Assembly (NCBI GenBank): GCA_947500415.1
Contig: CANMRT010000001.1
Location: forward strand, 1,328,982-1,392,981
Length of the DNA stretch: 64,000 nucleotides
Source of the DNA: an uncultured Roseicyclus sp.
GTDB lineage: Bacteria > Pseudomonadota > Alphaproteobacteria > Rhodobacterales > Rhodobacteraceae
Direction: 5' to 3'
Part shown: positions 43,282 through 46,892 of the stretch, in pieces
Layout: each line of letters starts with the position of its first letter
Position numbering within the stretch: position 1 is the stretch's first letter
Program-made: the position numbers and the translations under genes
The notes under the pieces: model-generated
The model's input: only the letters and a program-made list of their open reading frames with translations
Told to the model about the DNA's origin: nothing
Databases searched by the model: none

Positions 43282-43857
43282 ATGCTGTCTGGGAAACTGA
43301 CCCTTCTTGCCGCAACTGCGGCGACGTTTCTAAGCTTGCCCACCGCCGCTGCCGCGCAGGATTTCCTGTCGCGTGCTGAAGTAGAGGCGTTCATGCGCGA
43401 GGCTGCGTTTTGCTATCATCCCAATGATCGCTTCGCCTGCCTTTGGGCCGAGGTCTATTCGGACCTGAACGAAGATCATGCGATCCTGCAATCCGCCCAT
43501 GCCGTTTGGGATGAGCCGATGGAGGTGCAGCAATACCGCATCAATTGGGTCGATAACGCGTTGTGCATCCCATACGAGGATCAGGGATTGCAGGCGGTTT
43601 GGCAGGCAGAGGGATACCGTTTCCCCTTTGATCTGTCGGGGCTGGAGCCCTTGCCGGAGGATGTGATCCCGGAGCGGGTCGCGACATTGCAGGACGGCGC
43701 GCCGCAGGAATTCTGTTTCCGCTACACCATCGATGATGCCGGACCCGACGCGCTGTTCCAGCATGTATTCCGCGACGGGGTGGAGGATGAGGCGCTTGAT
43801 CCCATCGCCTTGATCCCATTGTTTGCGCGCGGCGTGGCGATCAGCCCGTCTGGTTAA
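43282..43857 (+). CDS. Exported protein, paralogue of 42287-42844
   Basis: A 191-residue protein with a signal peptide (MLSGKLTLLAATAATFLSLPTAAAA). The mature part starts QDFLSRAEVEAFMREAAFCY and continues CLWAEVYSDL and FPFDLSGLEPLPED, matching the upstream paralogue. The start at 43282 follows GGAG; ATG 43270 is an alternative. The two copies flank a 267-bp unrelated gene, indicating an old duplication. Function unknown. Confidence 0.75.
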   Translation: MLSGKLTLLAATAATFLSLPTAAAAQDFLSRAEVEAFMREAAFCYHPNDRFACLWAEVYSDLNEDHAILQSAHAVWDEPMEVQQYRINWVDNALCIPYEDQGLQAVWQAEGYRFPFDLSGLEPLPEDVIPERVATLQDGAPQEFCFRYTIDDAGPDALFQHVFRDGVEDEALDPIALIPLFARGVAISPSG

Positions 43858-44459
43858 CCCTCATTCGGCAGCAACATCGGGTAAAGCGACAGAACCAGCA
43901 GGACCGCCATCGTCCAATTGAATGCACGCAGGCGGCCCGGCCCGTCCAACCAGCGGCGGATTTGCGTGCCGCCCCAGGCCCATGTGGCGACGGACGGCAG
44001 GTTCACGAGTCCGAAGATGGCGGCCACAAACACGGCACCGGTCCATCCTGTGCCTTCTGGGGCGTAGGTCGTTTGGGCGTAGATCGACATGTAGACGGCC
44101 TTTGGATTGACCCATTGGAAACCGGCCGCCTGTAGAAACGTCAGGGGCTTTGCATCGTGATCCGCATCTTTGGGCGGGGCTGCGTTGGCGACTTTCCACG
44201 CCAGCCACAAAAGGTAGACCACCGCGATCACGGTTAGCGCTGTGCGAAGCCAAGGGATGATTTCGAACACCTGAACAAGCCCGAGGCCCAGGATCAGGGT
44301 CATCGCAGCGTGGCCAAGCGAGACGCCCAACATATGCGGGACCGTGCGGGCGAGGCCGAAGTTTACGCCCGAGGCCATCAGCATGATGTTGTTGGGCCCC
44401 GGTGTGATGGAGGAGGCGAAGGCAAACAGCACAAGGCCGTAGAGGAGTTCGTATGTCAT
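43854..44459 (-). CDS. LysE/RhtB family amino-acid exporter
   Basis: A 201-residue inner-membrane protein with about six helices. The N-terminal SSITPGPNNIMLMASGVNFG is the LysE/RhtB signature, followed by PHMLGVSLGHAAM and FQWVNPKAVYM. It exports amino acids or related compounds. The divergent neighbour is an Lrp/AsnC regulator, the usual partner of such exporters. It overlaps the convergent exported-protein gene by 4 bp. Confidence 0.9.
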   Translation of the reverse strand: MTYELLYGLVLFAFASSITPGPNNIMLMASGVNFGLARTVPHMLGVSLGHAAMTLILGLGLVQVFEIIPWLRTALTVIAVVYLLWLAWKVANAAPPKDADHDAKPLTFLQAAGFQWVNPKAVYMSIYAQTTYAPEGTGWTGAVFVAAIFGLVNLPSVATWAWGGTQIRRWLDGPGRLRAFNWTMAVLLVLSLYPMLLPNEG

Positions 44460-44531: not shown

Positions 44532-44984
44532 ATGACGAAGATTGATGAAAAAGACCGACATATATTGCGAGAGTTGGCGCGGGACGGGCGGATCTCGAAT
44601 CTCGACCTGGCGGAAAGGGTCGCGCTCTCGCCGTCGGCCACATTGCGGCGGGTGCAGGCGCTGGAAGCTGATGGGGTGATCCGGGGCTACCGCGCGGTGA
44701 TGGATCCGGCAAAGCTTGGGATCGGGTTCATTGCCTACATCACCGTGGGGCTTGGGTTGCACACCAAGGACGCGCAAGCCGCGTTTGAGGCGGCGGTCGC
44801 CGATGCGCCCGAGGTCAGGGAATGTCACAACATCACAGGAACAGTGGAATATCTGCTGCGCGTGGAGGTGGCTGATTTGCCCGCCTACAAGCGGTTTCAC
44901 ACGGATATTTTGGGCGCTCTGCCGCAGGTGGCAACGATCACGACGTTTGTTGTGATGGGCTCTCCCAAAGACACGCGCGCCTGA
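44532..44984 (+). CDS. Lrp/AsnC family transcriptional regulator
   Basis: A 150-residue regulator. Residues 4-60 are the winged helix-turn-helix (DRHILRELARDGRISNLDLAERVALSPSATLRRVQALEADG). Residues 65-145 are the RAM ligand-binding domain (GIGFIAYITVGL, ECHNITGTVEYLLRVEVADLPAYKRF). It probably controls the divergent lysE-type exporter in response to its amino-acid substrate. Its stop is 24 bp before the T-tract/terminator hairpin of the opposite-strand RNA array. Confidence 0.92.
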   Translation: MTKIDEKDRHILRELARDGRISNLDLAERVALSPSATLRRVQALEADGVIRGYRAVMDPAKLGIGFIAYITVGLGLHTKDAQAAFEAAVADAPEVRECHNITGTVEYLLRVEVADLPAYKRFHTDILGALPQVATITTFVVMGSPKDTRA

Positions 44985-44996
44985 AGCGCCCCCCCG

Positions 44997-45044
44997 AAAA
45001 GAAAAAAGCGGCGATGGTCCAAGGGAGGAGAGGACCATCGCCGC
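44997..45044 (-). terminator. Intrinsic terminator formed by the last array hairpin
   Basis: On the minus strand a perfect 13-bp stem (arms 45032-45044 and 45008-45020) is followed by TTTTTTCTTTT (45007-44997). It ends the transcript from the DUF1127 gene and RNA array. Its loop carries the same CCTCCTCCC motif as the other units. Confidence 0.88.
45008..45044 (-). ncRNA. Array unit 6 (terminal, strongest stem)
   Basis: Perfect 13-bp stem with an 11-nt loop AAGGGAGGAGA on the plus strand (45021-45031). It doubles as the intrinsic terminator of the transcript. Confidence 0.85.
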
Positions 45045-45052
45045 CAGATCTG

Positions 45053-45083
45053 AGCACCCCCTAAGGGAGGAGAAGAAGGTGCT
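45053..45083 (-). ncRNA. Array unit 5
   Basis: Stem AGCACC/GGTGCT (6 bp, perfect) with a larger loop containing AAGGGAGGAG (45063-45072 on the plus strand). Confidence 0.7.
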
Positions 45084-45089
45084 TATGGC

Positions 45090-45117
45090 ATCACCCCTCA
45101 AGGGAGGAGGAGGGGAT
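45090..45117 (-). ncRNA. Array unit 4
   Basis: Stem ATC-AC-CCCTC pairing with GAGGG-GAT around a two-base bulge; loop AAGGGAGGAG on the plus strand (45100-45109). Confidence 0.7.
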
Positions 45118-45130
45118 CTACCGGTCGTCA

Positions 45131-45158
45131 CGGCCCCATATTGGGAGGAGAGGGACCG
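45131..45158 (-). ncRNA. Array unit 3
   Basis: Stem CGGCCCC/GGGACCG with one internal mismatch and a 14-nt loop containing TTGGGAGGAGA on the plus strand (45138-45151). Confidence 0.7.
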
Positions 45159-45194
45159 ATGCTTTGGCCCATTCGGGCCGGTGTTGGTGCGGAC

Positions 45195-45218
45195 GCGCCC
45201 AAGGGAGGAGAGGGCTGC
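45195..45218 (-). ncRNA. Array unit 2
   Basis: Stem GCGCCC/GGGC-T-GC with one bulged base and an 11-nt loop AAGGGAGGAGA on the plus strand (45201-45211). Confidence 0.7.
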
Positions 45219-45226
45219 CCGCTGTC

Positions 45227-45256
45227 CCGCGTTTCAATGGGAGGAAGGATACGCGG
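45227..45256 (-). ncRNA. Array unit 1 (DUF1127-proximal)
   Basis: CCGCGT/ACGCGG 6-bp perfect stem enclosing an 18-nt loop. The motif is the variant GGGAGGAAGG on the plus strand (CCTTCCTCCC in the RNA sense), the most diverged of the six. Confidence 0.65.
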
Positions 45257-45273: not shown

Positions 45274-45495
45274 TTAGGCCTGCTTGCCGTAGGCCGCTTC
45301 CATCGCGATGCGGCGGATCATCGAGGGATTGATACCCAGATCAGCCATTTCACGGGCGGAAAGGCCCTGAAGCTCTTCCAGCGTGTTGCGGTAGACGCGC
45401 CAGTTGCGGTAGGCCTCAACGGCGTTGGTGCGGAAGTCCGCAATGCGGCCGATCAGCGAAGCTGCGGGTGCGCGGTTGCTCGTTACATATGCCAT
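45274..45495 (-). CDS. DUF1127 small protein (CcaF1-like)
   Basis: A 73-residue basic protein. The C-terminal half EAYRNWRVYRNTLEELQGLSAREMADLGINPSMIRRIAMEAAYG is the DUF1127 motif. The CcaF1 homologue of R. sphaeroides binds RNA and takes part in maturation of the CcsR RNAs cotranscribed with it. Here too a CCTCCTCCC-loop array starts 17 bp downstream. The start at 45495 is the conserved MAYVT; a frame to 45648 is unsupported. Expression under heat or oxidative stress is inferred from Rhodobacter. Confidence 0.9.
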   Translation of the reverse strand: MAYVTSNRAPAASLIGRIADFRTNAVEAYRNWRVYRNTLEELQGLSAREMADLGINPSMIRRIAMEAAYGKQA

Positions 45496-45583: not shown

Positions 45584-45614
45584 AATGTAGGCCAATGCTG
45601 CGGATGCACAATAA
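45584..45614 (-). promoter_or_regulatory. Candidate promoter for DUF1127 and RNA array
   Basis: On the minus strand TTATTG (45614-45609), 17 bp, then CCTACATT (45591-45584). This would start RNA about 80 bases before the DUF1127 ATG. It has some likeness to RpoH-type promoters of alphaproteobacteria, but neither box is a strong match. Confidence 0.3.
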
Positions 45615-45683
45615 CCGATGGCGAAATGCTGCTATGCAGCACGTGCATGACACATATTCGTTACATTCCGTAGGGTTAACGCC

Positions 45684-46892
45684 ATGGTAATCGCGGGTGG
45701 AGCCTTCCGAGACAGGCAGTTTCGGCTGTTCTTCGGGGGCGTTTTCTTTGCTGTGCAGGCGATTTGGATCCAACGGGTCACCCTCGGGTGGCTGGCGTGG
45801 GAGCGCACGGGCTCGGCCCGCGTCGTGGGATTGGTCGCCGCATTGAGCCTGGTGCCCACGCTCTTTGCGGGGCCGTTCTTTGGCGTATTGGCAGACCGGG
45901 TGGACATCCGCGCGGCCTCGCTTGTGACGAACGGTTTGATGGCCTTGGTGCTTGCAGTGCTGGCCATGGTGGCGGGGCACGTGGGCCCTGTGGGCCTTGG
46001 CGTGGCGGCGCTGGCGATCGGCGTGATTTCAGCCGCGCACCATCCGATCCGCATGTCGCTGGGGCCGCGACTGGTGGCCACGGACATGGTGCAGCATGTG
46101 GTTTCGGCCACGGCGCTGAATTTCAACATCGCGCGGCTGGTGGCCCCGGTTCTGGCAGGGTGGATCATCGCCACGGCAGGTGGCGGCACCGCGTTGTGGA
46201 TTGCCGCCGTGTGCTATTTGCCGATGCTGGCGGTGCTGCCGACGCTGAGGCCCCGGGCATTGAGCCCCAGAGCGCCGTCGCCGTTCCTCCAGGATCTCAA
46301 GGAAGGCATCGCCTATGCGTTGCGCGCGCCACTGATCCGGCAGGCGCTATTGATAACATTGGTCTTCGCCACAACCGCGCGTGGCGCGTTGGAGGTCTTG
46401 CCCGTGCTGGCCGACGGCGGCTTTGGCCGCGGCGCTGCGGGCCTTGGCTTTCTGACGGGGGCTGCGGGCGCGGGCGCGCTGGTGGCGGCCGTGATGAAGG
46501 CCGGCGGCGTGGGCGCGGTCGGCGCACGTATTCCCCGCGCCGTTTGGGCGGCGTCCTTCATTGGGCAATTGGCTGTTCTTGGGATGGGGTTGGCGCCTGC
46601 GTGGAGCTTCGCGCTGGCGGCCACGGCGCTGACGGGGTTCTGCGCCACATGGTGCGGGGTCTCGCTGCAATCGGCGATCCAGACCGATTTGCCGGACGGG
46701 ATGCGGGGGCGCGTGATGAGCCTATGGGTGGTCGTGGGCTTTGGCACGGTGGCCATAGGCTCGCTGGGGATAGGGTCGCTTTCGGATCTCACTGACGTTG
46801 GAACCGGGTTGACCATAGCGGGTCTCTTCGGGGCTGCGGCAATGGGGCTAGTCTTGCTGGGGGTGCAGGCCCGTGCAAATCATCCTATGTGA
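45684..46892 (+). CDS. MFS transporter, DHA3/enterobactin-exporter-like
   Basis: A 402-residue membrane protein with about ten to twelve helices. The N-terminus FRDRQFRLFFGGVFFAVQAIWIQRVTLGWLAWERTGSARVVG and the FFGVLADRVDIRAASL loop (motif A form GxxADRxDRR) identify the DHA3/EntS-like branch of the major facilitator superfamily. These act as proton-driven efflux pumps. The substrate is unknown. It is divergent from the DUF1127 gene. Confidence 0.88.
   Translation: MVIAGGAFRDRQFRLFFGGVFFAVQAIWIQRVTLGWLAWERTGSARVVGLVAALSLVPTLFAGPFFGVLADRVDIRAASLVTNGLMALVLAVLAMVAGHVGPVGLGVAALAIGVISAAHHPIRMSLGPRLVATDMVQHVVSATALNFNIARLVAPVLAGWIIATAGGGTALWIAAVCYLPMLAVLPTLRPRALSPRAPSPFLQDLKEGIAYALRAPLIRQALLITLVFATTARGALEVLPVLADGGFGRGAAGLGFLTGAAGAGALVAAVMKAGGVGAVGARIPRAVWAASFIGQLAVLGMGLAPAWSFALAATALTGFCATWCGVSLQSAIQTDLPDGMRGRVMSLWVVVGFGTVAIGSLGIGSLSDLTDVGTGLTIAGLFGAAAMGLVLLGVQARANHPM

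Follow-up and report, generated by a model that had tools for sequence, protein, structure and literature searches.

Gene, hairpin array and terminator

In the window (the whole 64,000-nucleotide stretch of DNA that was analysed), the minus strand carries a ccaF1-like gene at 45274-45495 that encodes a 73-aa DUF1127 protein (Pfam PF06568, 47.8 bits, E 1.1e-12). This short gene lies directly upstream, on the same strand, of six successive hairpins (45256-45007), the first of which begins 17 nt past the stop codon. Each hairpin exposes a C-rich loop with a near-constant core on a stem that differs in sequence from the others and is self-complementary, in agreement with the first-pass annotation of this DNA. 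The neighbouring genes encode an Lrp/AsnC-type regulator (44532-44984, plus strand), a LysE-type exporter (43854-44459, minus strand) and an MFS transporter (45684-46892, plus strand).

Unit 1 (45227-45256) has the variant loop CTTCCTCCCATT, as the same annotation had pointed out. The loop TCTCCTCCCTT is shared by unit 2 (45189-45222), unit 5 (45053-45083) and unit 6 (hairpin 45045-45007), unit 3 (45127-45162) has TCTCCTCCCAATAT, and unit 4 (45087-45122) has CTCCTCCCTT inside CTCCTCCTCCC, being the sole unit with the full 9-mer CCTCCTCCC (1/6). The 8-mer CTCCTCCC is found in five of the six units and TCCTCCC in all six. Between units 2 and 3 there is a spacer hairpin without the motif (45166-45179, loop GAAT); as this long spacer sets apart units 1 and 2 only, pairing of the remaining units is not evident in the window. 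The 14-pair stem of unit 6 runs into T6 (45002-45045 in all), which makes it an intrinsic terminator by anatomy; its absence from a consensus terminator scan is explained by a loop that exceeds the length allowed by the scan.

The possibility that a low-complexity, C-rich stretch simply happens to fold here was weighed against the energies and covariation of the stems. Counting both strands, the 4.01-Mb genome contains 84 copies of CTCCTCCC; five fall in the array, for an expectation of 0.006 per 300 nt. When the core was held fixed and the 36 flanking bases were permuted, the real hairpin energy was equalled in 40, 4, 14, 3, 2 and 0 of 1000 shuffles for units 1 to 6, respectively, so that unit 1 is the weakest. 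A fortuitous fold would draw on the 4% of shuffles that reach the stem energy of unit 1, and on C-rich repeats elsewhere in the genome, including two places where copies of CTCCTCCC lie 15 and 21 nt from each other, but five of the six units lie beyond 98.5% of their shuffles, two stems covary, and the array is kept behind the same gene in nearly all related loci. We consider this explanation to have practically no chance of being right, and it was rejected on the shuffle energies and stem covariation. The closely set CTCCTCCC copies at C1:28055 and C1:775082 were not counted as further members either, being C-rich repeats.

Covariation within the genus was measured on two stems, with slid controls that preserve relatedness. 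In the terminator stem (10 distinct genus rows), 96.4% of 140 cells were paired, both sides had changed in 5 of 14 pairs, and the covariation score was 0.413 compared to 0.052-0.200 for the slid controls, with none of 500 shuffles equalling it. The outer stem of unit 1 (11 genus rows, 5 pairs) was paired in 96.4% of 55 cells and reached 0.567, against at most 0.084 when slid and again with 0/500 shuffles equalling the score; both sides had changed in three of its five pairs, a number equalled by 31/500 shuffles. Neither stem contained further pair types beyond those of the shuffles (488/500 shuffles equalled their number for the terminator and 226/500 for unit 1). Both stems tested thus covary within the genus. 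Pair counts from MAFFT-aligned rows gave 82/84, 123/132, 84/84, 103/107 and 148/154 paired cells for units 1, 2, 3, 4 and the last, with both sides changed in 5/7, 4/11, 1/7, 5/9 and 5/14 pairs; the structure behind these counts was itself derived from those rows, in which loop columns are partly misaligned, so loop identities were left unused.

Loops and hairpin number among relatives

Relatives were compared over 122 loci: the present one, the 29 best other family matches, 12 from the genus and, out of 458 confirmed, the best 80. The sample is made up of closest homologues and is not random; after removal of five near-duplicates it provides 114 distinct array loci. DUF1127 homologues (E <= 1e-6) were detected in 13/13 genus genomes and in 89/120 family genomes, own genome included. 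An array stands behind the DUF1127 gene in 119 of the 122 loci, the exceptions being L009, L100 and L119, and this arrangement of ccaF1-CcsR type is the rule among closest homologues in the family. The genome of the window has two more DUF1127 genes, neither of which has CTCCTCC on its strand within about 1.5 kb.

Over the 858 units of the 114 loci, the mean hairpin energy was -19.2 kcal/mol compared to -7.0 kcal/mol for shuffled sequences, and 99.8% vs 43% were at or below -8 kcal/mol. We relied on these energies because the cut-offs of the hairpin caller are permissive, passing a mean of 602/924 shuffled candidates vs 897/904 real ones. TCCTCCC is kept in 846 of the 858 units, a count in which only the position beyond TCCTCC is informative, as TCCTCC was the search core; C follows the loop core in 99% of units, and the full 9-mer CCUCCUCCC is present in 668/858. 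Together with the two covarying stems, these numbers support the earlier suggestion that loops are kept while stems diverge but stay paired. A further contrast is provided by the motif-free spacer hairpin, which is predicted in 12/12 genus loci: its loops differ from locus to locus beside loops that keep their core, and selection on the loop can be judged against it.

The number of hairpins per array ranges from 2 to 17 with a median of 7, and six is the commonest value. Two hairpins were called in 3 loci, three in 2, four in 17, five in 2, six in 26, seven in 10, eight in 22, nine in 5, ten in 12, eleven in 2, twelve in 4, thirteen in 3, fourteen in 3, sixteen in 1 and seventeen in 2. Even counts prevail over odd ones (88 vs 26 loci; binomial p 5e-9, kinship ignored), as if arrays changed by pairs, and the median spacing of units is 40.5 nt from odd to even (416 cases) compared to 62 nt from even to odd (328). 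Hairpin number is in this sense an evolving quantity, mostly even. Within the genus, leaving out the near-duplicate L040, eight hairpins were called in 5/12 loci (L036, L037, L042, L043, L045) and six in 7/12; L044 has further degenerate hairpins past its six. By eye, the eight-hairpin loci of the genus show two loop classes, UCUCCUCCCUU and UUUCCUCCCAU, which differ jointly to the left and right of the core; the difference perhaps amounts to one more U-A pair that closes the loop. The longest arrays, with 17 motif hairpins each, are those of L012 (= L071, Wenxinia marina) and L026.

In L021 (genome G051), whose protein is nearly that of Cereibacter johrii, the 14 motif hairpins form seven pairs. 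Five of these pairs are almost the same in sequence, recur every 114-115 nt and look as if they came from recent tandem duplication. The sample does not establish the last motif hairpin as the terminator in general: TTTT follows it in 46/114 arrays vs 11/744 inner units, by a rough criterion that overlooks genuine examples (L034 among them).

Relation to CcsR and ar14 RNAs and proposed function

The locus is of the ccaF1-CcsR kind ("cuckoo", CIN1-type) of alphaproteobacteria, a known kind, here with a slightly shifted loop motif. In Rhodobacter sphaeroides, ccaF1 is a 71-aa DUF1127 gene co-transcribed with the CcsR RNAs from an RpoHI/HII promoter; maturation of these RNAs is reported to involve RNase E and CcaF1, and the association of ccaF1 with CcsR to be frequent across alphaproteobacteria (PMC10253847). 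As in the CcsR1-4/ccaF1 locus of that species, the DUF1127 gene comes first, followed on the same strand by C-rich hairpin loops of anti-Shine-Dalgarno type and, last, by a terminator, so the assignment made in the first-pass annotation holds. The loops here are mostly UCUCCUCCC and not CCUCCUCCC, and the hairpins are evenly spaced past the first two, unlike the strict pairs of the CcsR locus. Furthermore, the terminator hairpin of the window carries the motif, whereas in Cereibacter johrii (L092) the final strong hairpin ahead of the T-rich end lacks it, as judged by eye. Members of the cuckoo family are described as having 2-4 hairpins with constant CCUCCUCCC loops and hypervariable stems (PMC4504443).

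At Rfam gathering scores, the whole window returned a single tRNA and nothing else. Below them, the model RF02344 (ar14) aligned in full length to the last three hairpins with 47 bits (E 2.2e-7; gathering score 58.8), and RF02791 (CcsR1) matched the last two with 24.1 bits (E 0.0017; gathering score 65.3). The CcsR scan suggested previously therefore produced a match, although a better one was obtained with ar14 and neither attained its gathering score. Searched genome-wide, the ar14 model scored 30.9 bits (E 9.6e-4), and it also matches 3/14 unrelated control genomes at E <= 1. In the relatives L021, L092 and L081, which share the promoter-region elements described below, one CcsR1 match each was above the cut-off and 6, 3 and 3, respectively, were below it. 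Weaker matches in the window were those to ar7, sX13 (24.0 bits) and anti-hemB (21.8 bits). The sX13 RNA of Xanthomonadaceae and anti-hemB of Burkholderia likewise have C-rich hairpin loops, but with scores far under the cut-offs of 50 and 49.5 they are at most functional look-alikes.

The likeness to the ar14 sRNAs of Rhizobiales (e.g. NfeR1) resides in three hairpins with anti-Shine-Dalgarno loops and stems free to differ. The ar14 RNAs are described as comprising three hairpins and as being transcribed from a sigma-70 promoter of their own (PMC7143759, PMC10746234), with hypervariable stems and constant CCUCCUCCC loops (PMC10746234, PMC7143759, PMC3927594), and in S. meliloti the three loops are reported to repress ntrB redundantly (PMC10746234). 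Two further matches of the ar14 model in the genome, C1:815127 and C2:1130691, were rejected as members because they are single hairpins, the former running into T6. The latter (G000:C2:1130691-1130768, L128) stands alone, its GC stem carrying a CTCCTCCCAAAA loop (weak ar14 match, 18.4 bits, E 0.57), and might be a lone cuckoo-like unit.

The first-pass annotation had called the locus expanded, setting its six hairpins against the four CcsR RNAs of R. sphaeroides. This we rejected, since hairpins had been compared with RNAs. The Rfam consensus of CcsR1 describes a single RNA of 83 nt that contains two motif hairpins, and the eight called hairpins of L092 form four pairs with four CcsR1 matches, just as the seven pairs of L021 give seven; one CcsR RNA hence corresponds to two hairpins. 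The six hairpins of the window would then amount to about three CcsR RNAs, if cut in pairs. Moreover, six is the commonest number of the sample and L092 itself has eight. The arrangement of anti-Shine-Dalgarno hairpins is already in print, and its number here is an ordinary one. The interest of the locus lies in the range of copy number and in the promoter elements rather than in the array itself, and whether copy number sets the damping of translation could be addressed with the natural arrays.

We regard a ccaF1-CcsR operon, yielding small RNAs that mask their targets with their loops, as the best explanation and a probable one. Under this model, an RpoH-type stress sigma factor would drive a single transcript comprising the DUF1127 gene and a structured 3' region, with hairpin 6 as its end. 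Small RNAs with one hairpin or several would be released from the 3' region by an endonuclease, which in R. sphaeroides is RNase E, under the influence of the DUF1127 protein. The unpaired (U/C)CUCCUCCC-like stretch of each loop could then pair with Shine-Dalgarno sites of the GGGAGGA type and lower the translation, or alter the stability, of target mRNAs under stress. Stems would serve to keep the loop open, so that mainly their pairing matters, and consecutive hairpins would raise the dose of one redundant seed. What the sequences themselves establish is the layout of the locus, covarying stems, a constant loop and the joint conservation of gene, array and promoter element. Induction, cutting, Hfq binding, the role of the DUF1127 protein and target repression are all proposed here by analogy with published relatives, among which the CcsR RNAs are reported to bind Hfq and to target flhR (PMC8307010).

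A mainly cis role for the array has also to be considered, in which the hairpins stabilise and terminate the DUF1127 mRNA or bind the DUF1127 protein, the loops being a protein-binding motif. The position of the array directly behind the gene in 119/122 loci, the terminator formed here by the last hairpin, and the reports that CcaF1 of R. sphaeroides is an RNA-binding protein with an effect on how its own transcript is cut (PMC10253847, PMC8307010) are all consistent with such a role. On the other hand, the loop core is complementary to Shine-Dalgarno sites, a stabiliser requires neither a fixed loop nor 2-17 copies, and the loop of the motif-free spacer hairpin varies. In addition, ar14 RNAs with the same loops, in whose description no DUF1127 gene was noted, are reported to repress targets in trans by means of these loops (PMC10746234). 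A mainly cis function thus appears improbable. Complementarity to the loops in the leader of the DUF1127 gene itself is limited to GAG, with a maximum of five matching bases across the 114 loci, so the array seems not to be aimed at its own gene.

The pattern GGGAGGAN{4,9}ATG occurs 79 times in the genome vs 10 for the reversed pattern, these being annotation-independent pattern matches, one of which is the antisense of unit 3. This excess lends sequence support to the masking of Shine-Dalgarno sites by the loops. So many sites, and the high copy number in relatives, could also suit an array that acts as a sponge for ribosomes or free 30S subunits, braking translation globally instead of regulating chosen mRNAs. 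However, loops resembling the anti-Shine-Dalgarno end of the 16S rRNA would pair with mRNA and not with the ribosome, and the published work on CcsR and ar14 names particular targets (PMC8307010, PMC10746234), so we give a sponge very little credence.

Promoter elements and candidate PhaR sites

Upstream of the gene, a promoter-like element at 45585-45611 (minus strand) comprises TTGTGCATCCGCAGCA (45611-45596) and CTACAT (45590-45585). By eye, TTGTGC is followed after 15 nt by the -10-like CTACAT, and we infer that both could constitute the -35 and -10 of an RpoH-type promoter, CTACAT being a weak match by eye to an RpoH -10. A sigma-70 scan found nothing at this element, as expected if another sigma factor is used. 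The pattern TTGTGCANNNGCAGCA (45611-45596 here) occurs once in the genome and was found at most 260 nt from the start codon in 99/114 loci, being absent from 15/114.

Farther upstream (45629-45648, minus strand), two dyads overlap, ATGCACGTGCTGCAT at 45648-45634 and CTGCATAGCAG at 45639-45629. The dyad ATGCR-N5-YGCAT is present in 90/114 loci vs 1/407 control windows and starts 37 or 38 nt before TTGTGCANNNGCAGCA in the 76 loci that contain both, with an inner position that pairs in only 56/90 cases. CTGCATAGCAG matches the published PhaR site of R. sphaeroides, CTGCNNNGCAG (PMC12542648), and is by this sequence match a candidate site, with a centre that is not palindromic, unlike many phasin sites. 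This second pattern (CTGCN3GCAG), overlapping the ATGCR-N5-YGCAT dyad, was found in 72/114 loci vs 2/446 control windows and is absent from 42/114. A looser form, [CG]TGCN3-4GCAG, is present in 110/114 loci (all but L008, L063, L085 and L106) vs 26/446 controls, partly because TTGTGCANNNGCAGCA satisfies it; TTGTGCANNNGCAGCA itself has four bases between TGC and GCA, compared to three in the published PhaR site. For reference, CTGCN3GCAG was detected in the upstream regions of phasin genes, known PhaR targets, in 20/30 loci (twice in the own genome), 10/30 being without it.

PhaR (PF05233) is encoded in 41/42 genomes, the exception being G003, which is also the sole genome without a phasin match. 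Among the 40 distinct array loci of these 42 genomes, the looser dyad is missing only from L008, the locus of G003; L007 and L008 are both without TTGTGCANNNGCAGCA. The coincidence would fit control by PhaR, but a single PhaR-less genome is one event, and L009, in a genome with PhaR and without an array, also lacks the looser dyad, which weakens the reading. The four-base gap of TTGTGCANNNGCAGCA, the loci without TTGTGCANNNGCAGCA or CTGCN3GCAG, the non-palindromic centre of CTGCATAGCAG and the phasin loci without the site also count against PhaR. The ATGCR-N5-YGCAT dyad persists in the genome without PhaR and may be bound by a different factor. Judged from these motifs, a regulator in addition to RpoH is suggested by the conserved and rigidly spaced elements of the promoter region; PhaR is a candidate for this role, and actual control of the ccaF1-like promoter by PhaR would be a guess. 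A broader proposal, which we hold to be doubtful, ties the ccaF1-cuckoo operon of the family to carbon storage: PhaR, a polyhydroxybutyrate-sensing repressor, would read the dyads, and stress and stored polymer would jointly set a dose-adjustable Shine-Dalgarno blocker of 2-17 hairpins, whose number would change in steps of two through tandem duplication. No paper naming PhaR together with CcaF1 was found among the matches listed, in a search that left most subscription journals outside, and one Rhodovulum genome comparison names PhaR together with DUF1127. Of the three loci without an array, L100 and L119, unlike L009, carry a TGC-N3-GCA dyad upstream of their DUF1127 genes.
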